64,000 nucleotides of DNA, from positions 1,178,001-1,242,000 of the forward strand of contig JABTUL010000001.1 in the NCBI GenBank assembly GCA_015075425.1, given 5' to 3'. The notes beneath the pieces were generated by a model. That model did no database searches, was not told the DNA's origin, and worked only from the letters and a program-made list of their open reading frames with translations. The stretch comes from Spirochaetales bacterium. GTDB taxonomy: Bacteria > Spirochaetota > Leptospiria > Leptospirales > Leptonemataceae. Shown one piece after another: positions 24,034 through 57,174 of this stretch. The position numbers and the translations under genes were made by a program. Within the stretch, counting starts at the first letter, position 1, and each line of letters begins with the position of its first letter.

Positions 24034-24211
24034 AGCCTATTTAGACACATCTGCCTACCTGGCCATCCTTTTGGGAGAAGAGCCGGCAGACGTGGTCCGG
24101 CGGCGGACCAGGGGAAAGGGGTTTTGCTCAAGCGTTCTACTCCTGGCCGAAGCAGAAAGATACCCTTGTGCATCTGGTCCGGTCCGGAAATCTACCCGAA
24201 TCAATATTTGA
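24026..24211 (+). pseudogene. Truncated, frameshifted VapC-type PIN toxin
   Basis: The frame starts MSRAYLDTSAYLAILLGEEPA, giving the first PIN aspartate, and continues to LLLAEAER with the expected second acidic residue. The frame then shifts near 24160: another frame continues VHLVRSGNLPE, typical of PIN proteins. The sequence is cut off where the truncated integrase gene ends. PIN toxins are ~130 residues, so less than half remains. Confidence 0.6.
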
Positions 24212-24914
24212 ACTGGCATTTGCACAAATCGGAAATGACCGTAATGATTCCCCGAGCCAGATCCACGTCTTTCCAGGTGAGGGCTTGAATTTCCCCCAGA
24301 CGCATTCCGGTCGAAGCTGCCAGGAGGCAGGCCGTTCTGGCCCGTAAATCTTTCCAGGTTCCTTCCCTGAATAGACGCGACGCTTCGTCGATCGTAAGGA
24401 CTCCGGTGCGCTTTTGTGGCTCGGTGGAAACGGTGGGAATGCGGGGGAGGCGGTCCACGTAACCCGCTTCCTCGGCTGCAATGAGTATCTGCCGCAGGCT
24501 GACGAGGATCTGGTGTACCCGGGCTCCGCTCAGTCGGGCAAAGAGAACATCTCGGAATCTTTTTATATCTATTGTGGCTATTTCATCCAGCCGTCGGTCT
24601 GCAAATTCTGGCAGGAGATAGAGTTCGAGAATTCTCGTCCGCTCCCGGCTGTTGCGTTCGGAATGCCTCTTGCCGGACGTCCGCCGGTCCATGCTCCAGG
24701 TGCTATCCCAGGCAAAAAAGTTTTCGGTAAATTCCCGGAACGTGGGGTTGGCTCGCTTTCTGGCCTGAGTGGCAAAATGGGAGTAATTTTCGCGGACCCA
24801 TTTTTCCGCACGTTTGCGGTTGCTCTCGCGGGTGCTCTGGTGGGCGACAACTTGGCCACCTTCTCTCACCTGAACGTAGTAGGTGCGGCCTCGACGGTAC
24901 AGGGTAACATTCAC
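24201..24914 (-). pseudogene. Truncated tyrosine-recombinase integrase
   Basis: Phage-type integrase with an N-terminal arm-binding region (VTLYRRGRTYYVQVREGG), a core-binding SAM-like domain (about 70-165) and box I with the first catalytic arginine (ASTGMRLGEIQALTW). The sequence stops soon after. The box II H-x-x-R and the tyrosine nucleophile are absent, so it should be inactive. The GTG start at 24914 has an AAGGAG seven bases upstream. It is the first gene next to the tRNA, as expected for a tRNA-integrated element. Confidence 0.85.
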
Positions 24915-24945
24915 GGGCAGACTCCTTGCTTCTGCGCATGGACCA

Positions 24946-24964
24946 TGCCCACACGCCCACAGTT
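24946..24964 (+). repeat. Arm-site-like repeats near the tRNA end
   Basis: TGCCCACAC and CGCCCACAGTT, matching the 11-base repeat found four times near the distal att site. They lie between the integrase start and the att core. Confidence 0.5.
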
Positions 24965-25033
24965 CGTTGCGCCCGTTTTCGGGTGGCAATTTCACAGAAT
25001 GCGGAGAACTGGCCGTTCTCGTTATTCTGAGTA

Positions 25034-25104
25034 AGCGGGCGAAGGGACTCGAACCCTCTCCAGAAGCTTGGAAGGCTGCTGTGCTACCGTTACACTACGC
25101 CCGC
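25034..25104 (-). tRNA. tRNA-Gly (UCC)
   Basis: On the minus strand the sequence folds as a 71-base tRNA: acceptor GCGGGCG/CGCCCGC, D arm GTGT/GCAC, anticodon loop CTTCCAA (anticodon TCC) and T loop TTCGAGT. The discriminator is T and CCA is not encoded. The anticodon stem GCAGC/GCTTC has one C-T mismatch. Its 3' portion forms one att repeat of the integrated element. Confidence 0.92.
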
Positions 25105-25150
25105 TTGGTCAGCAGCTTTCTTAATACGGCGGCCACTGTCAATACAAACT

Positions 25151-28506: not shown

Positions 28507-28904
28507 TTGTTTTTCTCCTTCCCTTTGACCGGATTGCCTTTGCCCTCGGGCTTGCCTTTTCCGCCAGGTTTAGCGACGCTTTCCGATTTACCAGAGCCCT
28601 CCGGTTTACTATTTCCTTCAGGTTTGCCCTTACCTTTGCCTGGCCGTTTCCCTGAAGCAATTTCTTCTTTGCGTTTGGCCAGTTTTTCTTCTGCGGTTTT
28701 GATGCGTTCGCGCAGCCTGGCAGCTTGCTCTGTCTTACCGTCTGCTTCGAGCTTTTTAGCAACCCGTATTAGATTTTCTATCCGATTGGCAAGACCAGTC
28801 AGGCGAGCGTTTTCTGTGACCTCCGCTTCCTGGGCTGTCAGTCCGGTTCCCAGGCAGAAGAGCAGGACGCTCATAAGACCCGTTACTTTCTGTTTGAATA
28901 TCAA
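28503..28904 (-). CDS. Secreted coiled-coil protein with Lys-Gly-Pro-Glu repeats
   Basis: A 133-residue protein from a TTG at 28904 with AGAGG eight bases upstream. The signal peptide reads LIFKQKVTGLMSVLLFCLGTGLTAQ. A helical region with coiled-coil character follows (LANRIENLIRVAKKLEADGK…AAEEKLAKR-like), then a C-terminal low-complexity tail of GKGKPEG/KPEGSGK repeats. It is very basic. Function unknown; it may bind an anionic polymer such as nucleic acid or peptidoglycan, which is speculation. Confidence 0.6.
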   Translation of the reverse strand: MIFKQKVTGLMSVLLFCLGTGLTAQEAEVTENARLTGLANRIENLIRVAKKLEADGKTEQAARLRERIKTAEEKLAKRKEEIASGKRPGKGKGKPEGNSKPEGSGKSESVAKPGGKGKPEGKGNPVKGKEKNK

Positions 28905-28988
28905 AGTGGTTCCTCTTATTCGAATATTGTGCCCATCGTGCAACACAGCAGCAAAGCTTCCGGCCTCAGCAACAAAGGCGAAACCTTT

Positions 28989-29017
28989 TTGACACAGATA
29001 GGCGGCTCCGGGTAAAT
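28989..29017 (+). promoter_or_regulatory. Possible promoter for tRNA-Asn
   Basis: A consensus -35 TTGACA (28989-28994) is followed after 17 bases by a weak -10 (GTAAAT). The tRNA starts 45 bases downstream. Confidence 0.3.
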
Positions 29018-29061
29018 CCTTGACGGCAGGGACTCCCGCAACAGGCTGGATTTTCCGACAC

Positions 29062-29134
29062 TCCCCTGTAGCTCAGTCGGTAGAGCAGTTGGCTGTTAAC
29101 CAATTGGTCGTAGGTTCGAGCCCTACCGGGGGAG
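29062..29134 (+). tRNA. tRNA-Asn (GUU)
   Basis: A 73-base cloverleaf: acceptor TCCCCTG/CGGGGGA, D arm with AGCTCAGTCGGTAGAGC, anticodon loop CTGTTAA (GTT), T arm GTAGG/CCTAC with TTCGAGC, discriminator G, then genomic CA. Its 3' end is the attachment point of the island. Immediately downstream lies an inverted partial copy of its anticodon and T arms. Confidence 0.95.
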
Positions 29135-29180
29135 CAGATTAGAACACGGTCGAACCTACGACCGATAGGTTAACAGAAGA
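29125..29180. repeat. att-like site 1: tRNA-Asn 3' end plus inverted tRNA-Asn piece
   Basis: TACCGGGGGAGCA of the tRNA end is followed by ~12 bases and then GTCGAACCTACGACCGATAGG, the reverse complement of the tRNA-Asn anticodon/T-arm region with a few changes. The same composite recurs at 35343-35397 (inverted) and 37957-38000. Confidence 0.75.
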
Positions 29181-29298
29181 ATTGCTGGAAGGCCTCAATT
29201 CCACAAATTAGCGCAGAATTTTGCAGACCGGCAGTTTTCATCTGATATGCTTCAATACTGGACTTTATAGGTTAACACCGGACCAGATAGTCCAAAAA

Positions 29299-31257
29299 CT
29301 ACCTCTCATGATCCGGTTGGACTCGCAAAATTTTATTAATAGTGTTTGCTTGCCATTTTCCACCCTGCTTTGTCGGTATCCTTCGCCTGTTCAATTCATC
29401 TGCAATGGCGCGCAGCGACTCCCCACTTTTCTGCATCTGTCGCATTAGCATGATGGCCTTTTGCTCTTCATCGTTCATGACCAGCTTTCCATCGTGCTTT
29501 TCAAATCCGAAAGGAGCGCGTCTTGTTAATCCTGTACTGCGCTCTGGCCCCAGAAGGCCAAGCCGGTAGATGGCTGTACCAATAGCGGTGGGAGAAACCT
29601 TTAGTTGTCGAGCAATCTCATTACGGCTGAGGCCATTTCGCAATAGCTGTTCCAGCAAGGCACGGCTTCGTAAAAGAAAGATACCTGGCAGAGGCACTTT
29701 TTCTTCAATCACAGGCGCAGAGCTATCCTTGTCATGACTTTTTACCCCAGGTGCAAACAAGGGAAGTCGGATACTGAGTTCTGTGTCTTTAAGGGCAATG
29801 CTGGCCACAAAGGCTTTGATTTTTTGGCGGGTCATTTCGTTTTCCTTTAATTCTTGCGCGGCCTCCTTGCTGAAAATCTTCAAGAGTGAAGCAGGATTCG
29901 CTTGGCTGGACGCCAGAAGCCTTTCCACTTGATCTCTGTTTTGATTCTTAGCCAGCAGGAGAAGCTGGTGCTCTGACTGAAGCTGTGCAATGTCGTTTTC
30001 CAGATTGCGGCGCACCTCCGTCAAAGTGACCAGTCTGAGCTGGGACAATCGCTCTTCGATCTGGCGTGATAGTTCTTCCGTCTTCCGGTGCAATCGCTCC
30101 TGTTCTTTTCCAAGTTCACCGGTTCTCTTTTTAACCTGACCCTGGATTTTCTGGGCCAGAGCTGGATCAAGCTGGCGTGATCTGCTTAATTTTTCTAAAT
30201 AATTTAGAACCAGTACTTCCACGGCTTCGGAGGGAATGCGCTCATGCAGAGCATTCTCAGGACAGGATTTCCGGTGTGCGTAGTATCTCCGGTAGCTGCC
30301 GGACCTGGAGCGAGCACTTTTCCCGCTCAAGGGCTCTTTGCAGGCAGCACAAACTAAAATTCCTGAGAGCCAGTAGTTGAAAGATTTTGCATTGGAGTTA
30401 TTTTTCCGGCCCTTCTGGAGCAGTATCTGTGCTTCATCAAAAGTTTTCTGGTCAATGAGGGCTGGCCATGCAGCCGGGACTTCTGATTGCTGTTCGTCGC
30501 CACTCAATTCACGCAACCCCAGATAGCTGCGATTGCGCAAAATGTAATAGAAAGTGGAGCGACTGATACGCCCCAGATCGGGATGGTCTCGAAATTTGCG
30601 CCGGATTTCTTCGAGTGTTTTTCCGGCTGAACCCAGCCGGACATATCCGCGAAAAATAGCCCGGACCATTTGTGCTGAATCATCCATGAGAAGATGACCC
30701 TTGCGTTCTGGATCTCGTTTGTATCCCAGAGGAGGCAGGCCACCATTGGCCAGGCCACGTTTGGCACGTTCACGGGCATTGCGGCTGGTGCGCTCTGCCG
30801 TGATTTCCCGTTCAAATTCGGCAAAGACCATCAGGATCTTCACCACAAGATTGCTGAAAGGTGAAGTGGTATCGATGACCGTCTTGAGGCAGACCAGGTC
30901 GCACTGGTGATGCTGGACATATTCAAAGATATTCAGAAAGTCTCTGAGGGAACGGGAAAGACGGCTCAACTCCGTGAAGAAGATGGCATCGACGGCCCCG
31001 CGCTCGACATCGGCCAGGAGTCTCTTGAATTCCGGGCGGTCCATGCTCTTGCCGGAAAATCCGCCATCAATATATGTATCCACCAGGCGGCCCCAGGCTT
31101 CGCCGGTATTGCGTCGTTCCAGCTCTGCCTGGAGCATCTGCTGCTGGTTCTTGAGTGAACCTTCCTGCACCTGTGCCTGACGTTCGGTGGAAACGCGTAC
31201 ATAGAAAGCCACCCGGCGGACCTTCTGTCCGCCGGTGGCTGATTTCTGTCTGGCCAT
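29299..31257 (-). CDS. Large serine recombinase, cassette copy A
   Basis: A 652-residue site-specific recombinase. Resolvase catalytic domain at about 13-155 with nucleophile Ser23 (YVRVSTERQ); recombinase DNA-binding domain about 175-270; zinc ribbon with C303, C306, C332; long coiled coil about 365-450; a helix-turn-helix at 543-563 (LSRNEIARQLKVSPTAIG). An unusual C-terminal segment (582-645) repeats the pattern of the internal recombinase domain. It is the only intact full-length copy without an altered N-terminus. Its ATG overlaps the stop of the 48-residue gene. Its 3' end points at tRNA-Asn, so it probably mediated insertion there (inference). Confidence 0.93.
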   Translation of the reverse strand: MARQKSATGGQKVRRVAFYVRVSTERQAQVQEGSLKNQQQMLQAELERRNTGEAWGRLVDTYIDGGFSGKSMDRPEFKRLLADVERGAVDAIFFTELSRLSRSLRDFLNIFEYVQHHQCDLVCLKTVIDTTSPFSNLVVKILMVFAEFEREITAERTSRNARERAKRGLANGGLPPLGYKRDPERKGHLLMDDSAQMVRAIFRGYVRLGSAGKTLEEIRRKFRDHPDLGRISRSTFYYILRNRSYLGLRELSGDEQQSEVPAAWPALIDQKTFDEAQILLQKGRKNNSNAKSFNYWLSGILVCAACKEPLSGKSARSRSGSYRRYYAHRKSCPENALHERIPSEAVEVLVLNYLEKLSRSRQLDPALAQKIQGQVKKRTGELGKEQERLHRKTEELSRQIEERLSQLRLVTLTEVRRNLENDIAQLQSEHQLLLLAKNQNRDQVERLLASSQANPASLLKIFSKEAAQELKENEMTRQKIKAFVASIALKDTELSIRLPLFAPGVKSHDKDSSAPVIEEKVPLPGIFLLRSRALLEQLLRNGLSRNEIARQLKVSPTAIGTAIYRLGLLGPERSTGLTRRAPFGFEKHDGKLVMNDEEQKAIMLMRQMQKSGESLRAIADELNRRRIPTKQGGKWQANTINKILRVQPDHER

Positions 31258-31403
31258 CAGGCTGCGAGGCGCTTTTTGTATCTTTTGCGCAAGCGGCAGA
31301 GCCTTCTGCCGGTGCGCTCAATACCTTTGCGGTTCTTGAGCCGGACCTGACGGCGCATTTCCTGCATCAATCTGTCATGGGCCTTCTGGTATATGGCTTC
31401 CAT
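31257..31403 (-). CDS. 48-residue basic peptide, cassette copy A
   Basis: MEAIYQKAHDRLMQEMRRQV, then KNRKGIERTGRRLCRLRKRY, ending KKRLAA. About one third of residues are Lys or Arg and the sequence is predicted helical. Start and stop overlap the neighbouring genes (TAATGG upstream, TGATGG downstream), so it is made in step with both. Conserved in four cassette copies, including between diverged ones, which argues for a real gene. It may bind DNA or the recombinase; a recombination directionality factor is one possibility. Confidence 0.75.
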   Translation of the reverse strand: MEAIYQKAHDRLMQEMRRQVRLKNRKGIERTGRRLCRLRKRYKKRLAA

Positions 31404-31792
31404 TAGACCATACCTGCGAAGAGCGGGAATTGCTCATGAGTGAGCTGGTCAAAGCCTGCTCTCAAAAGAGCCATGTCCCAGACCATGGCATGCTGTTCCA
31501 GACAGGCCCGCACAAAAGCATCCGTATGCACATTGTGGACAATGATTTCCACCTGTTCCCGGATGCGCAGATAGAACGGGAGCCAGATTTCTGCCGTGAT
31601 GGCAAATTGCATTTCCCGGTCTGTGAGATCATCCGTGGATTGTTCCACACAAATGGCTTCACCCCGGTGAATGCCATACTGGATGAATGTTATGTCCAGT
31701 TGTTGGTTGCCCTTGTGAACTGAGATGCAACCCTGCTGGCGCAGAGCTGACCATCCGCCAAAGGCCCCGATGATACGCTGGATTGAATTCAT
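31403..31792 (-). CDS. DUF6908-like protein, first gene of cassette A
   Basis: A 129-residue protein. The pattern (IQRIIGAFGGWSALRQQG…LTDREMQFAITAEIWLPFYLRI…F…ACLEQHAMVWDMAL) resembles DUF6908, small proteins found on mobile elements; this is recognition by pattern and needs a profile search. A strong AGGAGG precedes the ATG. It is the first of three overlapping genes ending in the recombinase. Confidence 0.65.
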   Translation of the reverse strand: MNSIQRIIGAFGGWSALRQQGCISVHKGNQQLDITFIQYGIHRGEAICVEQSTDDLTDREMQFAITAEIWLPFYLRIREQVEIIVHNVHTDAFVRACLEQHAMVWDMALLRAGFDQLTHEQFPLFAGMV

Positions 31793-32016
31793 GTTTCCTC
31801 CTGTGCTGACTGTGCAGCCAGCGCCGGAGAACCTGTTTTCCAGGGGAGGTTGCTAAAAAATTTTCCTGAATCTGAAAATTTTTCGGCGAACCGTTTGGAA
31901 ATACAGTAAATGTATCTAAAATATCGTCAATCCATATTTGATTTTTCTGCTCAGTCGCTGTCAAATGGCGTCGATCGGTAAACTTTACCTGAGAAACAGA
32001 TCATGCGCTCCCTGTC

Positions 32017-32091
32017 GCAAAAACCATGCCGGCCCTTAATTTGCTTCTTTTGAAGATGAGGTAGTCCCTGCGAGGCAGGCATGGTTTTTGC
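32017..32091. repeat. Hairpin 1 of spacer array
   Basis: GCAAAAACCATGCC (32017-32030) pairs perfectly with 32078-32091 across a 47-base loop. Confidence 0.8.
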
Positions 32092-32203
32092 CAATCGGGT
32101 TTCAGAAGAGCGCGGGTTCACCAAGGACATGGAAGTCGTGCAGCTTGCCAGCTCACCTGTGAAGCCACAACATCAGACTGGCCCCATGAAACCGGGACCC
32201 ACC

Positions 32204-32259
32204 AATCCCCCTGAGCCCGGCCGGCCCCGCATGGTGAAGCCGGCCGGCTCAGGGGGATT
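32204..32259. repeat. Hairpin 2 of spacer array
   Basis: 32204-32224 (AATCCCCCTGAGC then CCGGCCGG) pairs with 32240-32259 with one bulged base; 15-base loop. Confidence 0.8.
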
Positions 32260-32344
32260 TTGGGGCAATCAGGAGCGATTTGACTGCAAATAGGCGAGAT
32301 GAGGTCCACTGGCTTGAAACGTTCTGCAAACCGTCCCGTTCTCC

Positions 32345-32420
32345 GCAATCCCCATGCCAGGCCGCTTCAGGAAGTATGTTAAGTATTAACTTTTCGCCTT
32401 TGGCCTGGCATGGGGATTGC
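32345..32420. repeat. Hairpin 3 of spacer array
   Basis: A perfect 19-bp inverted repeat, 32345-32363 (GCAATCCCCATGCCAGGCC) with 32402-32420; 38-base AT-rich loop. Confidence 0.85.
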
Positions 32421-32469
32421 AGATGCTAAAGGAAACAGCTTTCAATCGACTCTTCTTTGCCGACAAGGT

Positions 32470-32516
32470 GCGGCCAGTAACAGGCTCGTACCCAGCGGGA
32501 GCCTGTTACTGGCCGC
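32470..32516. repeat. Hairpin 4 of spacer array
   Basis: A perfect 18-bp stem, 32470-32487 (GCGGCCAGTAACAGGCTC) with 32499-32516; 11-base loop. Confidence 0.85.
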
Positions 32517-32544
32517 CCATGCTATGGAACGGAAAGAGCTCACG

Positions 32545-32588
32545 ATAAATCAGGGTGGCCTCGCCTCTGTGAAGCCACCCTGATTTAT
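32545..32588. repeat. Hairpin 5 of spacer array
   Basis: A perfect 15-bp stem, 32545-32559 (ATAAATCAGGGTGGC) with 32574-32588; 14-base loop. Confidence 0.85.
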
Positions 32589-32766
32589 GGCGGGGCAAAT
32601 GGCTATATAGATATATCATTAGCTTTTAAGAGCAATATTGCTCTTTGCCCCTCTGAAGCTTGATTCTTGTTCGCCGAAAAATTTTCAGATTCAGGAAAAT
32701 TTTTTAGCAACCTCCCCTGGAAAACAGGTCATCCAGGCGCGCTGCACAGTCAGCACAGGAGGAAAC

Positions 32767-33153
32767 ATGAATTCAATCCAGCGTATCATCGGGGCCTTTG
32801 GCGGATGGTCAGCTCTGCGCCAGCAGGGTTGCATCTCAGTTCACAAGGGCAACCAACAACTGGACATCACATTCATCCAGTATGGCATTCACCGGGGTGA
32901 AGCCATTTGTGTGGAACAATCCACGGATGATCTCACAGACCGGGAAATGCAATTTGCCATCACGGCAGAAATCTGGCTCCCGTTCTATCTGCGCATCCGG
33001 GAACAGGTGGAAATCATTGTCCACAATGTATACGGATGCTTTGTGCGGGCCTGTCTGGAACAGCATGCCATGGTCTGGGACATGGCTCTTTTGAGAGCAG
33101 GCTTTGACCAGCTCACTCATGAGCAATTCCCGCTCTTCGCAGGTATGGTCTAA
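32767..33153 (+). CDS. DUF6908-like protein, first gene of cassette B
   Basis: A 128-residue near-identical copy of the cassette A protein. Two small deletions (2 and 1 bases, near 33028-33045) cancel, changing NVHTDAFV to NVYGCFV and keeping the frame. AGGAGG precedes the ATG at 32767. Its stop overlaps the 48-residue gene. Confidence 0.65.
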   Translation: MNSIQRIIGAFGGWSALRQQGCISVHKGNQQLDITFIQYGIHRGEAICVEQSTDDLTDREMQFAITAEIWLPFYLRIREQVEIIVHNVYGCFVRACLEQHAMVWDMALLRAGFDQLTHEQFPLFAGMV

Positions 33154-33299
33154 TGGAAGCCATATACCAGAAGGCCCATGACAGATTGATGCAGGAAATG
33201 CGCCGTCAGGTCCGGCTCAAGAACCGCAAAGGTATTGAGCGCACCGGCAGAAGGCTCTGCCGCTTGCGCAAAAGATACAAAAAGCGCCTCGCAGCCTGA
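33153..33299 (+). CDS. 48-residue basic peptide, cassette copy B
   Basis: Same sequence as in cassette A, open and coupled on both sides (TAATGG, TGATGG). Confidence 0.7.
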   Translation: MEAIYQKAHDRLMQEMRRQVRLKNRKGIERTGRRLCRLRKRYKKRLAA

Positions 33300-35223
33300 T
33301 GGCCAGACAGAAATCAGCCACCGGCGGACAGAAGGTCCGCCGGGTGGCTTTCTATGTACGCGTTTCCACCGAACGTCAGGCACAGGTGCAAGAAGGTTCC
33401 CTCAAGAATCAGCAGCAGATGCTCCAGGCAGAACTGGAACGACGCAATACTGGCGAAGCCTGGGGCCGCCTGGTGGATACATATATTGATGGCGGATTTT
33501 CCGGCAAGAGCATGGACCGCCCGGAATTCAAGAGACTCCTGGCCGATGTCGAGCGCGGGGCCGTCGATGCCATCTTCTTCACGGAGTTGAGCCGTCTTTC
33601 CGTTCCCTCAGAGACTTTCTGAATATCTTTGAATATGTCCAGCATCACCAGTGCGACCTGGTCTGCCTGAAAACTGTCATTGATACCACATCCCCATTCA
33701 GCAATCTCGTGGTGAAGATCCTGATGGTCTTTGCCGAATTTGAACGCGAAATCACGGCAGAGCGCACCAGCCGCAATGCCCGTGAACGTGCCAACGTGCT
33801 CGCCAATGGTGGCCTGCCTCCGGGATACAAACGAGATCCAGAACGCAAGGGTCATCTTCTCATGGATGATTCAGCACAAATGGTCCGGGCTATTTTTCGC
33901 GGATATGTCCGGCTGGGTTCAGCCGGAAAAACACTCGAAGAAATCCGGCGCAAATTTCGAGACCATCCCGATCTGGGCGTATCAGTCGCTCCACTTTTAT
34001 TACATTTTGCGCAATCGCAGCTATCTGGGGTTGCGTGAATTGAGTGGCGACGAACAGCAATCAGAAGTCCTGGCTGCATGGCCAGCCCTCATTGACCAGA
34101 AAACTTTGATGAAGCACAGATACTGCTCCAGAAGGGCCGAAAAATAACCCAATGCAAAATCTTCAACTACTGGCTCTCAGGAATTTTAGTTTGTGCTGCC
34201 TGCAAAGAGCCCTTGAGCGGGAAAAGTGCTCGCTCCAGTCCGGCAGCTACCGGAGATACTACGCACACCGGAAATCCTGTCCTGAGAATGCTCTGGATGA
34301 GCGCATTCCTCCGAAGCCGTGGAAGCACTGGTTCTAAATTATTTAGAAAAATTGCCAGATCACGCCAGCTTTGATCCAGCTCTGGCCCAGAAAATCCAGT
34401 GGTCAGGTTAAAAGAGAACCGGTGAACTGGAAAAGAACAGGAGCGATTGCACCGGAAGACGGAAGAACTATCACGCCAGATCGAAGAGCGATTGTCCCAG
34501 CTCAGACTGGTCACTTTGACGGAGGTGCGCCGCAATCTGAAAACGACATTGCACAGCTTCAGTCAGAGCACCAGCTTCTCCTGCTGGCTAAGAATCAAAA
34601 CAGAGATCATGGAAAGGCTTGGCGTCCAGCAAGCGAATCCTGCTTCACCTTTGAAGATTTTCAGCAAGGAGGCCGCGCAAGAATTAAAGGAAAACGAAAT
34701 GACCCGCCAAAAATCAAAGCCTTGTGGCCAGCATTGCCCTTAAAGACACAGAACTCAGTATCCGACTTCCCTTGTTTGCACCAAAAGTCATGACAAGGAT
34801 AGCTCTGCGCCTGTGATTGAAGAAAAAGTGCTCTGCCGGTATCTTCTTTACGAAGCCGTGCCCTGCTGGAACAGCTATTGCGAAATGGCCTCAGCGTAAT
34901 GAGATTGCTCGACAACTAAAGGTTTCTCCCACCGCTATTGGGCACAGCCATCTACCGGCTTACTTCTGGGGCCAGAGCGCGCAGCACAGGATTAACAAGA
35001 CGCGCTCCTTTCGGATTTGAAAGCACGATGGAAAGCTGGTCGCATGAACGATGAAGAGCAAAAGGCCATCATGCTAATGCGACAGATGCAGAAAAGTGGG
35101 GAGCTGCTGCGCGCCATTGCAGATGAATTGAACAGGCGAAGGATACCGACAAAGCAGGGTGGAAAATGGCAAGCAAACACTATTAATAAAATTTTGCGAG
35201 TCCAACCGGATCATGAGAGGTAG
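33299..35223 (+). pseudogene. Frameshifted large serine recombinase, cassette copy B
   Basis: Begins intact (MARQKSATGG…YVRVSTERQ, catalytic Ser23 present), but a one-base deletion near 33600 shifts the frame within the catalytic domain. Further indels follow near 33795, 33990, 34110, 34300, 34400 and beyond. Homologous protein segments continue in alternating frames to the final NKILRVQPDHER. It cannot make a full recombinase. Confidence 0.9.
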
Positions 35224-35342
35224 TTTTTGGACTATCTGGTCCGGTGTTAACCTATAAAGTCCAGTATTGAAGCATATCAGATGAAAACTGCCGGTCTGCA
35301 AAATTCTGCGCTAATTTGTGGAATTGAGGCCTTCCAGCAATT

Positions 35343-35397
35343 CTTCTGTTAACCTATCGGTCGTAGGTTCGACCGTGTTCTAATCTGCTCCCCCGGT
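35343..35397. repeat. att-like site 2 (inverted)
   Basis: GTTAACCTATCGGTCGTAGG resembles the sense tRNA-Asn anticodon/T-arm region; after GTTCGACCGTGTTCTAAT comes CTGCTCCCCCGGTA, the antisense tRNA 3' end. It marks the junction between cassette B and the rve-transposase unit. Confidence 0.7.
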
Positions 35398-36312
35398 ATG
35401 CAGGGCGCACCCGCCAGCCGCAAATTGCTAAAATTATTTGTCCCCTTCCTGGAGAGCTGCGCTTCCTATCGCACCAGACCCCAGCAACAGGGCAGTTTCT
35501 TGCCTGTTTCTTGCGCTCCGCCACCGGTTCAATCGCATTTTTCTGATCGCCATCACCACGAAATTCCCGGCTTGTCTATCAAACTTCTGTCAGGGCAGTT
35601 TCGCGTCCGCAAAGAACAGGGCTTTCAGCCCTGAATCATCCGATAGCGATGCTCCGCAAGAGCCGCAATATTTTCCGCTTCTGTCTGCATCTTTCCTTTT
35701 ACTATCAATTTTGAAAGCACCCTGCAATCCTCAACCTACCAGAGCCACTTCCTCTTCCCGTATTTTTTCCACTTGCTCCCACCCATGTCGGAGCAGCGGC
35801 CACTGGCAGGAGGAGCCGGCGGGGAAGAGTGGAACTTGAAGTTCCAACCTCAAATTGGTGCGAATTTTCTCTGGACAGAGCATCCGTTTCACTTCCGTTT
35901 CCATCCATGCCTCTCAAACTGTACAGGCTTCTTCGTAACCGGTCAACTTTTATTTTGATTTCTCTCATCTGTTTTCTGTTGATGCAGCTCTCATTGTATC
36001 GCCGCCGGCACCCCGTCTCAAAGCTCAAAACTCGGGAACGGTTTCTCCTGCGTCAGGCATGTCGTCTGCTACCTGCCGATCTCTGGCCATCCTTCCTTCT
36101 CATTGTACAGCCTCAAACACTGGTGCGCTGGCATGATTCCCTCTGGAATCTCATCCATCGCCTGAAATCTATCATCGGAACCTGGCTCTCCCGCAAACGG
36201 GCCGGACGTCCCCTGGAATACAGGGAAATCATCCGCATTCTCAAGCAAATCGTTCCGGAAAATCCACTCTGGGGAACGGTGCGGATCCAGTCTGAACTGA
36301 TGCATCTGGTGT
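35398..36312. repeat. Left arm of second inverted repeat
   Basis: Roughly the reverse complement of 37017-37935, with several indels. It carries degraded small genes and the N-terminal half of an rve transposase. Confidence 0.8.
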
Positions 36313-36314
36313 AA
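35907..36314 (+). pseudogene. N-terminal half of rve-type transposase
   Basis: Starts MPLKLYRLLRNRSTF with a hydrophobic stretch, then KTRERFLLRQACRLLP, VQPQTLVRWHDSLW, RAGRPLEYREIIRIL and NPLWGTVRIQSELMHL. This is the helix-turn-helix half of integrase-core transposases. It ends abruptly at the inverted junction, without the DDE domain. Confidence 0.7.
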
Positions 36315-36337
36315 TATGCCAGAAGTAATGTACAGCG

Positions 36338-37400
36338 CTATGCGGGCTCCTTTTGCCAGCTGTAGATATGATGCAGACCGTTCAGCGCTGGCTGTGAAAC
36401 GAGGATGGACTCGGGTGATCCCCGCGATATGGGGCGGCCAAGGGGTGTCTGGCCAGCAAGGCCCATGTGTGGGCGCGGATGGTTATAGTAGCGGACGTAC
36501 TGTTTCAGGAGGATCCTTGCATGCTTTTCTGTGCAGACAATAACCTGATCCAGAAGTTCTGTCCTCACGGAGCGGATCCAGCGTTCCGCGAAAGGATTCT
36601 GCCAGGGGGAGCGGATGGCCGTGCGACAGGGTGTGAGTCCACAGCTTTTGATGCTGTCCCGCACAGCTGTGTTGAAGATCGAGTCATGATCAAAGATAAG
36701 ATAACGAAACTCATGCTCCCAGGAGAGAGCCTCTTTGATTTGTTGTGTGACCCAGAAAGCTGTGGGATGGAAGGATACATTGAAGTGACGGATACGTCTT
36801 GTGGCATGTTCGATCATGAACCAGCAATACAGAGTCCGACCCGGGAATATCTTGATGGTGAAAAAATCCATGGCGAGGATGGCTGTAGCCTGATTTTTGA
36901 GGAAGGTTTTCCAGCGGTCACGCAAGCGGATGAGACGCGGGTCTTGCGGAAACAGCCGCTTGATATAGCGTCGCAATGTGGTCAGTGGAACAGCATGGCC
37001 CAGATGCATCAGTTCAGACTGGATCCGCACCGTTCCCCAGAGTGGATTTTCCGGAACGATTTGTTTGAGAATGCGGATGATTTCCTGTATTGCAGGGGAC
37101 GCCCGGTCTGTTTGCGGGAGAGCCGTGTCTGATGATAGATTTCAGGCGATGGATGAGATTCCAGAGGGAGTCATGCCAGCGCACCAGTGTTTGAGGCTGG
37201 ACAATGAGAAGGAAGGATGGCCAGAGATCGGCAGGTAGCAGACGACATGCCTGACGCAGGAGAAACCGTTCCCGAGTTTTGAGCTTTGAGACGCGGTGCC
37301 GGCGGCGATACAATGAGAGCTGAATCAATAGAAAACAGATGAGAGAAATCAAAATAAAAGTTGACCGGTTACGAAGCAGCCTGTACAGTTTGAGAGGCAT
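36338..37400 (-). pseudogene. Frameshifted rve (DDE) transposase
   Basis: The N-terminal half (same as the plus-strand copy) starts near 37400. A one-base deletion near 37135 breaks the frame. The C-terminal half in the other frame (36338-37030) has a complete DDE integrase core: AMDFFTIKIF, IFDHDSIF, and PFAERWIRSVRTELLD. The family is an IS481/IS3-like integrase-core group. It is interrupted, so probably inactive unless frameshifting occurs. Confidence 0.75.
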
Positions 37401-37586
37401 GGATGGAAACGGAAGTGAAACGGATGCTCTGTCCAGAGAAAATTCGCACCAATTTGAGGTTGGAACTTCAAGTTCCACTCTTCCCCGCCGGCTCCTCCTG
37501 CCAGTGGCCGCTGCTCCGACATGGGTGGGAGCAAGTGGAAAAAATACGGGAAGAGGAAGTGGCTCTGGTAGGTTGAGGATTGCAGG

Positions 37587-37772
37587 GTGCTTTCAAAATT
37601 GATAGGTAAAAGGAAAAGATGCAGACAGAAGCGGAAAATATTGCGGCTCTTTGCGGAGCATCGCTATCGGATGATTCAGGAGCTGAAAGCCCTGTTCTTT
37701 GCGGACGCAGAGCGTTTCACTGCCCTGACAGAAAGTTTGATAGACAAAAGCCGGGAATTTCGTGAGTATTAA
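37587..37772 (+). CDS. Possible small protein next to att site
   Basis: A 61-residue open frame, RKRCRQKRKILRLFAEHRYR followed by an acidic helical half (ADAERFTALTESLIDKSREF). The inverted copy at ~35580-35700 does not preserve this frame, so indels may affect one or both. The stop overlaps the GTG start of a 38-residue frame. Function unknown. Confidence 0.35.
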   Translation: MLSKLIGKRKRCRQKRKILRLFAEHRYRMIQELKALFFADAERFTALTESLIDKSREFREY

Positions 37773-37878
37773 CTACTACGATCTGGCCTGGCAAATGCGA
37801 TTGAACCGGTGGCGGGAGCGCAAGAAACGGCGCGAGGCCTTACGGATGCATTTGCAGCGCTGGGGTCTGGTGCGATAG
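37762..37878 (+). CDS. Possible 38-residue basic peptide
   Basis: From GTG at 37762: MSINYYDLAWQMRLNRWRER, then a Lys/Arg-rich helix to WGLVR. It overlaps the upstream frame by 11 bases. Size and charge resemble the 48-residue cassette peptide although the sequences differ, so it may be the analogous gene of another element type. Confidence 0.35.
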   Translation: MSINYYDLAWQMRLNRWRERKKRREALRMHLQRWGLVR

Positions 37879-37956
37879 GAAGCGCAGCTCTCCAGGAAGG
37901 GGACAAACAATTTTAGCAATTTGCCCTGGGGGTGCGCCGTGCACACCGGGGGAGCA

Positions 37957-38000
37957 TTATAGACACGCTCGAACATAGGACCGATAGTTACACACGAAAA
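37957..38000. repeat. att-like site 3
   Basis: CACCGGGGGAGCA (tRNA-Asn 3' end) followed by TTATAGACACGCTCGAACAT and AGGACCGATAGTTA, a diverged version of site 1. It lies ~100 bases past the 3' end of recombinase C. Confidence 0.65.
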
Positions 38001-38101: not shown

Positions 38102-40042
38102 CTAATTGGGCCGGTTCAGAATAATTGCAACCGTGCGGGCAAACCAGTTCCCGCCCTGTTTCGTTGGTACTTTGCGTTTATTTAATTCAACTGCAATCGC
38201 CCGCAGTGATTCTCCATTCTTCTGCATCTGTTTCATGAGCATGATTGCTTTTTGTTCTGCTTCGTTTTTGACCAGCTTTCCGGCGTATTTGTCGAATCCG
38301 AATGGAGCGCGTCTTGTGCGACCAGAGTTTCCCTCTGGACCTAAAAGACCAAATCGATAGATGGCCGTGCCGACCGCTGCTGGTGAAGTTTTCAGGTGTC
38401 GTGCAATTTCATTGCGACTGAGTTTTTCTTTATCCAGAAGATGCTCCAGCACCGCACGGCTGCGCAGGAGAAGGAGTCCCGGAAGGCTGACTCGATCTTC
38501 GATCACAAGAGCGGATTCCGTTTCCGCATTGAGGCTGCCAGGTTTTCCGGCCACAAGGAGTGGCAGGCGAAACAAGAGTTCTGTATCTTTGAGGTCAATG
38601 CTGGCCACGAAGGCCTTGATTTTCTGACGAGTCATTTCGCCTGATTGAATGTTTTGGGCAGCGTTCTTTTCGCAGACTTTCAGGAGCGTATGGGGCTGCT
38701 GTTTGCTGGCGGCGACCAGTCCTTCGATGGCCGTCCGGGTGTGTTGCTGGGAGATGAGAAGAAGCTGGTGCTCGGACTGAAGTTGTGCGATTTCGTTTTC
38801 CAGATTGCGGCGCACCTCCGGCAGAGTGACCAGTCTGAGCTGGGAAAGGCGCTCTTCGATCTGGCCGGAAAGTTCTCTGGCTTCCTGCTCCAGTTGGTTG
38901 CATTTTTTTTCAAGTTCTCCCGTTCGCTTGTTCACCTGCTTTTGAATCTGCCGCAGAAGTTCAGAGTCAAGCTGGCGGAAGCCATTTAACTTTTGTAAAT
39001 GCTGGCAGACCAGGGCTTCCACGTCATCGGCCGGGATGCGCTCATGCAGGCCCTGCTCGGGGCAGGATTTTCGGTGTGCATAGTATCTCCTGATCCTGCC
39101 GGATGCAGAGCGGGCGCTCTGGCCGCTCAGGGGTTGCTTGCAGGCGGCACAAAAGAGCGTACCCGAAAGCCAGTAGTTGAAAGACTTTGCGTTGCCCGTT
39201 TGATTTCTGCCCTTCATGAGAATCTGCTGCGCCTGGTCAAAGGTTTCCCGGTCTATGATAGCGGGCCAGGCTGCCTGAACTTCTGAGGTCAGGTCCTCGT
39301 CAGTGATTTCACGCAACCCCAGATAACTACGATTGCGCAGAATATAATAGAAAGTGGAACGGGTGATGCGCTTCAGATCGTGATGGTCTCGAAATTTGCG
39401 CCGTATTTCTTCCAGTGTTTTCCCGGCTGAGCCCAGCCTGACATAGCTGCGAAAGATGGCCCGGATGATCTGGGCGGAATCGTCCGCGAGAAGATGGCCC
39501 TTGTGGTCAGGATCTCGTTTGTATCCCAGGGGCGGCAGGCCTCCATTGGCCAGGCCACGCTTCGCCCGTTCACGGGCATTGCGGCTGGTTCGTTCTGCGG
39601 TGATTTCCCGTTCAAATTCGGCGAAGACCATCAGAATTTTCACCACAAGATTGCTGAAAGGGGAAGTGGTATCTATGACAGTTTTCAGGCAGACCAGATC
39701 GCAGTGGTGCTGCTGGACATATTCAAAGATATTCAGAAAGTCTCTGAGGGAACGGGAAAGACGGCTCAACTCCGTGAAGAAGATGGCATCGACGGCCCCG
39801 CGCTCGACATCGGCCAGGAGTCTCTTGAATTCCGGGCGGTCCATGCTCTTGCCGGAAAAGCCGCCATCAATGTATGTATCCACCAGGCGGCCCCATGCTT
39901 CGCCGGTATTGCGTCGTTCCAGTTCTGCCTGGAGCATCTGCTGCTGGTTCTTGAGGGAACCTTCTTGAACCTGCGCCTGGCGTTCGGTGGAGACCCGGAC
40001 ATAGAAGGCCACCCGGCGGACCTGGTGTCGTGCGAGTGGCAT
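38102..40042 (-). CDS. Large serine recombinase, cassette copy C (5' end altered by intron)
   Basis: A 646-residue recombinase paralogue of copy A. The catalytic domain is almost identical to A and D, while the zinc-ribbon, coiled-coil and C-terminal parts differ in many positions. All motifs are present (YVRVSTERQ; CAACKQPLSG; RNEIARHLKTSPAAVG; C-terminal PFGFDKYAGKL). A group II intron on the opposite strand replaced the first ~11 codons. An ATG inside the intron end (40042) now gives MPLARHQVRRV, so a functional protein is still possible. Normal operon coupling to the 48-residue gene is lost. Confidence 0.88.
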   Translation of the reverse strand: MPLARHQVRRVAFYVRVSTERQAQVQEGSLKNQQQMLQAELERRNTGEAWGRLVDTYIDGGFSGKSMDRPEFKRLLADVERGAVDAIFFTELSRLSRSLRDFLNIFEYVQQHHCDLVCLKTVIDTTSPFSNLVVKILMVFAEFEREITAERTSRNARERAKRGLANGGLPPLGYKRDPDHKGHLLADDSAQIIRAIFRSYVRLGSAGKTLEEIRRKFRDHHDLKRITRSTFYYILRNRSYLGLREITDEDLTSEVQAAWPAIIDRETFDQAQQILMKGRNQTGNAKSFNYWLSGTLFCAACKQPLSGQSARSASGRIRRYYAHRKSCPEQGLHERIPADDVEALVCQHLQKLNGFRQLDSELLRQIQKQVNKRTGELEKKCNQLEQEARELSGQIEERLSQLRLVTLPEVRRNLENEIAQLQSEHQLLLISQQHTRTAIEGLVAASKQQPHTLLKVCEKNAAQNIQSGEMTRQKIKAFVASIDLKDTELLFRLPLLVAGKPGSLNAETESALVIEDRVSLPGLLLLRSRAVLEHLLDKEKLSRNEIARHLKTSPAAVGTAIYRFGLLGPEGNSGRTRRAPFGFDKYAGKLVKNEAEQKAIMLMKQMQKNGESLRAIAVELNKRKVPTKQGGNWFARTVAIILNRPN

Positions 40043-42054
40043 GGCCACGTAACAAAGGGTGTAAGTCCCGAGGAGGCCCTGACGGAGGGAACTCCACACC
40101 TATGATGGCAAGGGCCAGATTGTGAGGTCTGGTCTGGTGGAAGCCTATGGTGAAATGGAAGCCTGAATGCGTTCAGCGTGAACCGCTGGAAGGCCTGTGC
40201 AAATGGATGAGTTAGCGACTGGTAGCGAAGTCCTGTATCCGTTGGTGTTGCACAGGTAGAGGCGGCAGGTAGTCCATGAAGTTGCGTGTGTCTTACCCAC
40301 TGAGATCTCCTGGCCTCCACGCAGGAGTGGTAATTGTCGAGGAGGACGAGACAATGAAGGGACAGGAGAAGTCGGACGACTCCATAGTACCGAAAAGTCG
40401 GCGAAAGTCGAAAGCGTCCCGCAAGGGAACAGGGAAGGGAGTCGCGGCCAGTAAAGATGCAGATCAACTGAAACTGTTTCAGGCTTCAGCTGAAAACCCG
40501 AAAGGGAGCTCTGGCCCACCGGTTGCAGACCCATCTGCTTCTGGAAGGTTCAAGCGGCCTTTGAGCTTGAGCATCGACAGCAAAGATCTGCCGGCGATGG
40601 CGATGGAAGAGATAGCAACACTGCCCAATCTCTATGTCGCTTTTGAACATGTGCGGGCCAACCATGGGTCGGGTGGTCCGGACAAACAGAGCGTGTAAGA
40701 AGTAAAGGAGCAAATCGACGATGTTGTGAAACGTCTTCGCATCGAGCTGCTTTCCGGGAACTACTACCCTGGTATGATACGCAGGGTCTGGATTCCAAAA
40801 CCGGGAGGTGGCAAGCGCGGTCTGGGTATTCCCAATGTCATCGATCGCATTGTGCAGCAGGCTTTTCTGCAAATCATACAGCCCCATTACGAAATGACCT
40901 TTCACGATTCCAGTCACGGGTTTCGACCCGGTCGAAGTTGTCACACGGCCCTTGCGGAAGCGAAAAGCTACATGGAAGAAGGATTGACCTGGGTCGTTGA
41001 TATAGACCTGGAAAAGTTCTTCGACCGAGTAAATCACCAGCGGCTTATCGTCCGCCTTGAAAGGCGCATAACAGATAAACGAGTTATGACGACGATCAAG
41101 AGGATGCTCAAAGCGCGGGTGGTGCTTCCTGATGGTTTGGTGGAAAGCGTGGAAGAAGGAGTCCCGCAGGGTGGTCCTCTGTCTCCTCTCCTGAGCAACA
41201 TTGTTCTGGATGAGCTGGACAGGGAACTGAGTCGCAGAGGGCATAGGTTCGTTCGCTATGCTGATGATAGTAACATCTATGTCGGCAGTGAACGGGCCGG
41301 TCTTCGCGTGATGGCATCAGTCAGTCGATTCATCGAAAAGAAGTTGCGACTGAAAGTGAATGCCAGTAAAAGTGCTGTGGCTGCACCGGATACGCGTCAT
41401 TTTCTGGGATTTTCCCTGAAGTATGATGCGGCAGACGGATCAGTTGCTGTGGCACTCTCGCGCAGAACCCATGAGCGGATAGCCCGAAGGATTGTTGAGT
41501 TGACGCCCAGAAACTGGGGCGGCTCCATCGACAGCTGTATTCGGCACGTGAATAGATACCTTCGCGGCTGGATGGGATTCTTTCGCATCTGTTCTGAGCC
41601 GGAGAAATATTTTCTCAGACTCTGGGATGCGCACACACGCAGACGGCTTCGAGCCATTCACCTCAAGCAATGGAAGAGACGTCGTTTCATTTATCGAAAG
41701 CTAATCAAGCTGGGAATAAAACCGAAGACGGCGAGCATGGTCTACTCGCGCAAGAGGAAAACTCTGGGCTCTATCGCACTGCTATGCAGTCGACAGGGCC
41801 TTGAACAACAGCTACTTCGCGCAAATTGGCCTGCTTTCTCTTGCTGCATTGTGGGATGAGTGGAATCCCGTGGCAAAAGTTCATAAAACCATCGCTTCAG
41901 GGCAATTACTGCTCTTTGAATAACTGAGTCCAGCCCAGCGCTGGAGTTTCCGCATTACCTGACGGAACGGCGGAATCCCGAAGAGCCGGATGTGAGATCC
42001 ACAAGTCCGGTTCTGTGAGAGCCGGGGGCGGGAGACGGCCCCCGGCTACTCGAC
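40030..42054 (+). mobile_element. Group II intron
   Basis: It starts GTGCGAG and has AAAGGGTGTAAGTCCC near the 5' end, typical of bacterial group II introns. It ends CTACTCGAC. Comparing copies C and D places the insertion exactly between GGTGTC and CGCCGGTGG of the recombinase 5' region. Domain V is at about 41983-42013 (GAGCCGGATG…AAGTCCGGTTC) and a domain VI stem follows. The intron is antisense to the recombinase gene, so splicing cannot restore that mRNA. Confidence 0.9.
40354..41859 (+). pseudogene. Group II intron reverse transcriptase/maturase with internal stop
   Basis: AGGAGG lies nine bases before ATG 40354. The protein has RT blocks (RRVWIPKPGGGKRGLGIPN; SSHGFRPGRSCH; EGVPQGGPLSPLLSN), the YADD active site, and the maturase X/GIIM domain (YLRGWMGFFRIC). 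A TAA at 40696-40698 splits it in frame between GPDKQSV and EVKEQID, where a Glu codon (GAA) is expected, so one substitution explains it. The downstream ATG at 40726 could give a 377-residue product lacking the RT N-terminus. Confidence 0.85.
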
Positions 42055-42822: not shown

Positions 42823-43065
42823 ATGTTAACACATAAGCAGTTACTTGAGCGTATCTCGATCAACCCGGCCATTTGCGGAGGCAAGCCCTGTATAAAAGGA
42901 CACCGGATCTGGGTTTCGCTGATGCTTGATTTTCTCGCTTCCGGGATGAGCACTGATGACATATTGAGCGAATATCCCCAGCTCACGGCTGAAGATATTC
43001 GGGCTTGCATGGCTTATGGATCTGAAATGACCCGGGAACGCATGGTGCATATTGCTGAGCGGTAG
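42823..43065 (+). CDS. DUF433 family antitoxin
   Basis: An 80-residue protein with RISINPAICGGKPCIKGHRI and VSLMLDFLASGMSTDDILSEYPQLT, the classic DUF433 winged-helix pattern. DUF433 proteins pair with DUF5615/PIN-like toxins as VapBC-type modules. Its stop abuts the toxin ATG (TAGATG). The module sits between cassettes C and D and has replaced the 3' part of recombinase D. Confidence 0.9.
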   Translation: MLTHKQLLERISINPAICGGKPCIKGHRIWVSLMLDFLASGMSTDDILSEYPQLTAEDIRACMAYGSEMTRERMVHIAER

Positions 43066-43434
43066 ATGAAGATCAAACTTGACGAGAACCTCGGCACGCG
43101 AGGTTTGAAGCTATTAAAGGAAAGCGGCCACGACGTGGCAACCGTGGTCGACGAAGATCTTTCCTCAGCATCAGATGATATACTGATCGAAATATGCCGC
43201 GCTGAAGAACGCGTTCTCATCACCTTTGACAAGGATTTCTCCAGCATTCTGCGCTTCCCGCCGCAACGATACGCAGGGGTCATAGTGCTCAGGCTCGCTG
43301 AACCATTCACCCTGCCAGACATTGAAAATGCGCTTCAACGCTTCCTGGCGGCATCGACTGGACAAAATCTGACCGGCCGCCTATGGATCATAGATTCGGA
43401 GCGTATCCGGGAATTTGATACACAGGGAGACTGA
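43066..43434 (+). CDS. DUF5615 PIN-like toxin
   Basis: A 122-residue protein, MKIKLDENLGTRGLKLLKES, then VVDEDLSSASDDILIEICRAEERVLITFDKDFS (quoted in part), with the conserved D-E-N and D-x-D positions of the Mut7-C/PIN-like fold. Probably an RNase toxin. It starts right after the DUF433 gene and is intact, so the pair may be functional and stabilise the island. Confidence 0.88.
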   Translation: MKIKLDENLGTRGLKLLKESGHDVATVVDEDLSSASDDILIEICRAEERVLITFDKDFSSILRFPPQRYAGVIVLRLAEPFTLPDIENALQRFLAASTGQNLTGRLWIIDSERIREFDTQGD

Positions 43435-56457: not shown

Positions 56458-57174
56458 CTATTCAGTACGCGCAAACCAGGATACTTTTTTACTGTTTTCC
56501 CTTTTCGCAAAGGGTGAGAGAAAACGAAGAATTTGCTCCACAACAGCATCCTGTACCGGAGGATAAAACGGCGCATGTAGCGGGTTGGGAGGGATTTCGC
56601 CGGATTCCGCGTGCGGCAGGAGTTTTGCCAGCTTAATATGGGCATCAGGTGCAATCAGGAATTCATCGCGGGGACCCAGGCATAATACCGGGCAGTGCAC
56701 TTGCTGAGCGATTTGCGCTACAGCCCTGCGAGCCTGATAGACCCGGATCATTGCATTTCCCGGAATGCGCTTGAAGACCCGCTGTGCCGGGGGAGCCGGT
56801 CCGCGTTTTCGCGCGCTATGCAGGAACAGGGCGCAACCATAGGCAATCCACCAGGATTCCCAGGGCGAATTGAGGCTCTGCGGCGGCGAAACGCAAACCA
56901 CCGCACGCGCTGGCCGCTCTACAGCAGCCAGCAGGGCCAGGTGGGCTCCAAGGCTATTTCCAATGAGAATGGGCGGATCCGGGCTCAATTGCATGGCGTC
57001 CAGGACGGTCTGTGTCATTTGCCTGATGCTGGTGTTGCGTAATTTCCAGACGCCTCTGTCGTGGCCGGCGATCACCGGAACGTGCGCGGCCATTCCCAGT
57101 TCCTGCTCCAGGGCTTGCGGGACAGTTCCAAAGTCGTAAGGGCTGCCGCTGTATCCATGCACGAATAAAAGCAT
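56458..57174 (-). CDS. Alpha/beta-fold hydrolase
   Basis: A 238-residue cytoplasmic hydrolase with LLFVHGYSGSPYDFG (oxyanion loop), nucleophile elbow GNSLGAHLAL, an acid near GPRDEFLIAP and the catalytic histidine probably in NPLHAPFYPP. It starts 6 bases after the sulfotransferase stop, so the two genes are probably one operon. Substrate unknown. Confidence 0.82.
   Translation of the reverse strand: MLLFVHGYSGSPYDFGTVPQALEQELGMAAHVPVIAGHDRGVWKLRNTSIRQMTQTVLDAMQLSPDPPILIGNSLGAHLALLAAVERPARAVVCVSPPQSLNSPWESWWIAYGCALFLHSARKRGPAPPAQRVFKRIPGNAMIRVYQARRAVAQIAQQVHCPVLCLGPRDEFLIAPDAHIKLAKLLPHAESGEIPPNPLHAPFYPPVQDAVVEQILRFLSPFAKRENSKKVSWFARTE

Follow-up and report, generated by a model that had tools for sequence, protein, structure and literature searches.

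A putative serine-integrase attachment site in which the element's half mirrors the T-arm of tRNA-Asn

Introduction

Why should a tRNA gene be followed, just past its 3′ end, by an inverted copy of its own anticodon and T-arm region? This arrangement was noted at a tRNA-Asn gene in the stretch of 64,000 nucleotides analysed here (the window), where a preliminary description read it as a probable recombinase attachment (att) site with a built-in tRNA mimic. A gene for a large serine recombinase (LSR) lies beside it and points at the tRNA, its own 3′ end 163 nt past that of the tRNA gene. Serine integrases are prized as DNA tools for their simplicity and directionality, and predicting which sites they choose is difficult. 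The question raised by this locus is what the mirrored piece does, and whether the recombinase next to it has any part in that.

Results

The mirrored piece and the recombinase beside it

The tRNA-Asn(GTT) gene, with its T-loop GTTC at 29114-29117, is the only tRNA-Asn copy found in the genome (Table 1). The reverse complement of 29093-29119 within this gene matches 29150-29176 at 25 of 27 positions, across a gap of 30 nt, and so bears out the inverted copy that had been reported past the tRNA 3′ end. The match spans the anticodon loop and its 3′ stem, the variable loop and the 5′ side of the T-arm, and the dyad axis of the pair is the last base of the tRNA. Neither 300 shuffles of the sequence downstream nor 18 swaps of tRNA and flank between loci produced a score as high. 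Recurrence of the composite at two other junctions, also reported earlier, held as well: 35343-35397 is an exact inverted copy at the edge of a palindrome, far from any tRNA, and 37957-38000 is a diverged copy. The block CCGGGGGAGC is common to all three composites (29062-29180, 35343-35397 and 37946-37998).

Table 1. Features of the window around the tRNA-Asn gene; att assignments are putative.
Feature	Position	Strand	Remarks
tRNA-Asn(GTT)	29062-29135	+	Complete gene called by ARAGORN; 3′ half = putative B half-site of attL
att core block CCGGGGGAGC = tRNA end	29126-29135	+	Again at 35387-35396 (-) and 37946-37955 (+)
Putative P′ half-site of element	29136-29177	+	Contains mirrored piece 29150-29176; GAAC 29152-29155, 38 nt after GTTC
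Direct repeat R1 ATAGGTTAACA	29165-29175	+	Distal part of mirrored piece
Direct repeat R2 ATAGGTTAACA	29267-29277	+
LSR, 652 aa	29299-31257	-	Resolvase + Recombinase + zinc ribbon + C-terminal HTH region
Left arm a of palindrome 1	29124-31891		Followed by unique spacer 31892-32668 (777 nt)
Right arm a′ of palindrome 1	32669-35398		Frameshifted inverted copies of LSR gene and site; mirrored piece 35346-35372
Palindrome 2	35399-37945		Arms b ~35399-36309 and 37000-37945 (~0.95 kb), spacer 690 nt
rve-type transposase ORF	36338-37030	-	Within palindrome 2
Second, diverged att composite	37946-37998	+	Core + putative P′ arm of next element; fronts second LSR gene
Second LSR	38102-40099	-	76% identical to first; adjoins third junction

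The window LSR matches PF00239 (Resolvase, 126.9 bits) and then PF07508 (Recombinase, 73.7 bits), both above the cut-off, while its zinc ribbon (PF13408) scores 24.3 bits, just below the cut-off of 25.3; the LSR of the relative G004 scores 30.9 bits for the same domain, above the cut-off. Across five aligned LSRs the zinc-ribbon cysteines 303, 306 and 332 are invariant, as are V22, S23 and T24 (5/5), in keeping with the catalytic serine of the N-terminal YxRVS motif of LSRs. The structure model of the window LSR was poor (mean pLDDT 64, pTM 0.38).

Junctions between tRNA and recombinase genes in relatives

LSR queries were run first against 61 relatives and later against 392 genomes from the phylum, and selected matches were examined further. 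Related LSR genes of the same phylum lie convergent on genes for tRNA-Asn, -Ser, -Leu, -Val, -His and -Glu and on that for tmRNA, and 19 tRNA-LSR junctions were collected by LSR homology, LSRs lacking an adjoining tRNA being excluded from the junction counts. GAAC starts at +38 from the T-loop GTTC in 11 of the 19 (10 of 18 excluding the window), where chance predicts 1/256 per junction, or 19/256 = 0.07 junctions. The remaining eight have no GAAC at +38, and four further GAACs occur at other offsets. GGAC at +28 (3/19 junctions; 6/19 as RRAC) is only a lead towards a further inner motif. Outside the subfamily of the window and G004-Ser, the LSR frame, taken from stop to stop, enters the tRNA gene by at least 3 nt in all 16 junctions, and the recombinase would therefore have different C-termini in the integrated and circular forms of the element. 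In a tree of 52 LSRs (20 at tRNA genes, 32 elsewhere), which has several long branches, those adjoining tRNA genes fall mainly in two supported groups (11/12 rows and 6/6), with three more elsewhere.

Searches for relatives of the element itself gave little. Viral contigs held none; named genomes yielded six loci, all distant Bacillota LSRs of 24-27% identity; and among plasmids and phages no record had one place covering 80% of the query, all matches being below 60% identity. For the elements of G143, G065, G196, G204 and G015 and the tmRNA element, none of the candidate far ends within the 19-40 kb searched was convincing.

Occupied site, empty site and circle joint

The genomes G001, G013 and G016, from another genus of the family than the window's, stand in here for an empty site of the same genus. 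Relative to G013 and G016, G001 carries an insertion of 16,866 bp between tRNA-Asn and the flank that follows tRNA-Asn in G016, which is of the same genus as G001. The core CCGGGGGAGC is present at both ends of this insertion; the left junction (attL) has the form GTTC-N34-GAAC, and the right (attR) ends in GTTCGAGTC...CCGGGGGAGC. The tRNA-Asn site of G013 is empty, with no inverted piece, and in G016 the end of the tRNA is repeated once in a short scar. In this comparison, as in the window with its complete tRNA-Asn, the insertion lies at the 3′ end of the tRNA and leaves the gene whole. The LSR frame of G001 (L033/L185) stops within the tRNA in the integrated form; read across the circle joint, it would continue for 27 more residues beyond the core.

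Joining both ends of the G001 insertion gives GTTC-N39-GAAC, 5 bp longer than the N34 of attL. For the A118/LI integrase (PMC3783163), the zinc-ribbon motif occupies half-site positions 16-24 in attP and 11-19 in attB, a shift of 5 bp outwards in attP. The gap at the circle joint of G001 agrees with this published shift, and the 42-nt outer span of attL fits 19 + 24 within one base. This 5-bp comparison is confined to G001, since the P arms of the window elements have no GTTC shifted by 5.

The spacing as a predictor

A set of 28 tRNA-Asn flanks of relatives was taken irrespective of LSRs. GAAC at +38 is absent from 26 of them and present in G001 and G006, both of which have an LSR ORF (503 aa in G001, a fragment at a contig end in G006); these two LSRs had been missed by the LSR homology searches and were reached through the motif. 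An inverted piece without an element, which the preliminary description had named as evidence against an att product, was thus not encountered among these flanks.

In 22 genomes of the family the spacing pattern had 30 matches, against 10 for the reversed control, and 11 of the 30 loci were at tRNA or tmRNA genes; seven of those 11 had an LSR. Under a stricter pattern, 258 genomes yielded 34 places, from which 29 loci were examined (four places were without a locus). Eighteen of the 29 were at a tRNA, and 12 of those 18 had an LSR-like ORF (one of them weak, a 30-aa match); several were known already, and those of G220, G181 and G164 were new. With the spacing changed by +1, 392 genomes gave 20 loci, none at a tRNA and none with an LSR; changed by -3, the same number of genomes gave 10 loci, four at a tRNA and none with an LSR. 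The other six of the 18 tRNA sites with the right spacing had no LSR ORF nearby and are either relics or exceptions. On these counts a putative tRNA-targeting serine-integrase half-site is predictable from sequence, and its frequency across the phylum is low. The loci L264, L265, L267, L270 and L271 show the T-loop/GAAC spacing, some at called tRNAs, with no recombinase ORF within 1.5 kb; these are possible scars.

The extended match in the window's subfamily

The mirrored copy of the window is the longest among the junctions compared, its match reaching ~42 nt from the axis, whereas the best ungapped mirrored segment at most other junctions is 5-12 nt. Over 28 positions, the mirrored matches number 25 and 19 for window elements 1 and 2, 19, 16 and 14 for elements e, c and a of contig C2 in the same genome, and 12 for G004 (shuffle p ≤0.015 in five of the six arms; 0.14 in G004). 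The distal half of the piece matches the target tRNA at 14 of 16 positions in the window and at 10 of 16 in one element at tRNA-Ser; four further arms show little or no such match. This distal part falls on a direct repeat of 9-11 nt, whose sequence is element-specific and kept within each element in all six arms; its shuffle p was 0.01 and 0.02 in window arms a and c, 0.08, 0.00 and 0.15 in C2 arms a, c and e, and 0.00 in G004, that is, at most 0.02 in four of six. The C-terminal region of the window-type LSRs is unmatched by the shorter tRNA-flanking LSRs. A reading of the direct repeats as RNA guides lacked support and was dropped.

Palindromic architecture of the element

Beyond the junction, the window element has the order a-S1-a′-b-S2-b′, with 777 nt of unique sequence in S1 and 690 nt in S2; the arms of palindrome 1 (2.77 kb) are 97% identical. 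The same design occurs at a tRNA-Ser on contig C2, where the tRNA is followed by palindromes that meet at the att core. C2 holds two units of this kind; their S1 regions measure 768 and 747 nt and their S2 regions ~6.9 and ~8.2 kb. The assembly has, at both the tRNA-Asn and the tRNA-Ser locus, inverted repeats with a putative recombination site around two unique regions, with indels. As a chain, the palindromes extend over 29124-37998 in the window and 6603-40963 in C2 (L075-L077 joined), in the same order at both tRNA loci.

We judge an assembly artefact unlikely: the outer borders fall on the att core, and all three LSR-type palindromes have a common inner border around different unique spacers of 747-777 nt. 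The middle palindrome copies carry more small indels (26 gaps, versus 4 in palindrome 1), some of which may have arisen in sequencing. In G001, the element's far end has the same core as the b ends, and the inner junctions therefore resemble attP-type joints within inverted repeats. The palindromes might be read as a circle with two inverted integrase-plus-site modules. On the right, the second window element might have ended at 56786, where the 10-nt core recurs, but this candidate was rejected, as it lies within an ORF (56458-57174) and is probably there by chance.

Discussion

The best account of the mirrored piece is that the segment at about 29114-29177 forms the attL of a mobile element that integrated here and is moved by an LSR of its own, with a left, B half from the tRNA and a right, P′ half from the element, and we consider this very probable. 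In such a site the B half would be the 3′ half of the tRNA-Asn gene. LSR sites comprise two inverted half-sites contacted by the same protein domains, and the element's half would mirror the T-arm for that reason, with GTTC on one side and GAAC on the other at a fixed distance. Crossover would occur at the end of the acceptor stem, and the tRNA would therefore stay whole. The position of the piece and its symmetry about the tRNA end, the recurrence of the spacing, its prediction of LSRs not seen before, and the comparison of empty site, attL, attR and circle joint in a related genus can all be read directly from the DNA, and together they argue for a P′ half-site that mirrors the B half-site. 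The attachment-site reading of the preliminary description is strongly supported by the survey of tRNA-Asn flanks, and what it called a tRNA mimic is more aptly seen as a half-site for protein binding, in mirror image. From the same sequences we infer that the zinc-ribbon domain reads GTTC/GAAC and that the element excises. The extra length of the window's match would reflect further contacts: its distal part may be a further binding site, perhaps for the C-terminal HTH region, which is the least certain step of the proposal.

Three other explanations deserve to be weighed against this account. The inverted piece could act in RNA, pairing with a read-through tRNA so as to control the maturation of tRNA-Asn or to end transcription towards the element. 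The predicted read-through RNA does form a hairpin of -52 kcal/mol (z -6.0), versus -28.1 for the tRNA alone, and no terminator-like site was found in 28900-29400. That the genome has a single tRNA-Asn gene can be taken in favour of such control, but a hairpin that traps the sole tRNA-Asn would be costly. Moreover, the mirrored segments at most other tRNA-LSR junctions are too short for a hairpin, though the spacing rule holds there, and in the window the piece also stands at the edge of palindrome 1, with no tRNA near it. DNA binding accounts for the feature without a hairpin, which is special to the window locus, and an RNA function appears highly improbable.

It is hardly credible, too, that a tyrosine integrase made the insertion and that the LSR arrived later. 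The 3′ ends of tRNA genes are the classical target of tyrosine integrases (PMC4383910), and a short phage-integrase ORF at 24201-24995 adjoins tRNA-Gly (25033-25105), but this ORF lies on the other side of tRNA-Asn, beside a different tRNA, and the gene at the junction is an LSR rather than a tyrosine integrase. An LSR faces the tRNA at all 19 junctions, which were selected for that, across several tRNA types; its frame enters the tRNA gene wherever the window/G004-Ser subfamily is set aside; and the motif alone led to LSRs not found before. Chance, or a functionless inverted duplication of tRNA DNA, might be suggested by the abundance of inverted duplications in the region, but it would not place the axis exactly at the tRNA end or repeat the same spacing at unrelated tRNAs and genera. 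Chance is already refuted for the core GTTC/GAAC pair, and for the feature as a whole we give such an origin next to no credence, although the distal part, that of the anticodon arm, might in some elements be fortuitous or a by-product.

Taken as an LSR attachment site, the junction has counterparts in several known systems. With the A118/LI integrase (PMC3783163) it shares the domain order, two inverted half-sites, a short shared core and, in G001, the 5-bp attP shift; it departs from that system in having the T-arm of tRNA genes as its target half-site, an additional C-terminal HTH region in the window LSR, and a mirrored match that extends to ~42 nt from the axis. Like the Islander genomic islands at tRNA and tmRNA genes (PMC4383910), the element is inserted at the 3′ end of a gene that is left whole, but with a serine rather than a tyrosine integrase, a shared core of 10 nt, and a mirrored rather than a direct copy of the tRNA. 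In streptococcal ICEs with rumA-targeting serine integrases, one element end lies within the integrase gene (PMC4701971), so that integration swaps the 3′ part of that gene. The present elements resemble them in this respect, although the target there is a protein gene and the integrase frame here ends inside a tRNA gene.

A different parallel concerns the palindromes. In the yeast 2-micron plasmid, long inverted repeats hold the recombinase sites and keep two unique regions apart, an arrangement that the window element resembles as assembled; the present design differs in that the recombinase gene also lies in the repeat, the recombinase is a serine enzyme and the DNA is integrated. It is conceivable, though we hold it doubtful, that the element carries a mirrored two-part address, in which the zinc ribbon would read the shared T-loop motif at a fixed distance and the added C-terminal HTH would read the anticodon/variable region that tells tRNAs apart, combined with a 2-micron-like palindrome holding two inverted integrase-plus-site modules.

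Among the titles and abstract openings covered, from a literature with few subscription papers in it, none describes serine integrases that regularly target tRNA genes. In Mycobacterium abscessus, 16 of 23 tyrosine-integrase sites overlap tRNA or tmRNA genes, and the available part of PMC10654092 names none for the six serine-integrase sites. The novelty is that LSRs within the known serine-integrase att systems appear to read the universal T-loop. If true, two unrelated integrase classes have settled on tRNA genes. The fixed distance between T-loop and GAAC offers a rule for finding such insertions from sequence alone, one that led to LSRs overlooked by homology searches, and the tRNA-targeting branch provides a natural series for asking how DNA-reading domains pick their target.

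Some further features of these loci may be recorded. The phage-integrase ORF beside tRNA-Gly marks another possible tRNA-gene insertion. Directly upstream of the second LSR gene lies an ORF for a group II intron reverse transcriptase/maturase (40726-41859), and at 42823-43434 a DUF433 and a DUF5615 ORF adjoin each other, a pair that we take to be toxin-antitoxin-like. The second C2 unit has, in its large unique region (31.0-39.3 kb, L076/L077), ORFs that resemble, by eye, a methylase/helicase/ATPase cluster.
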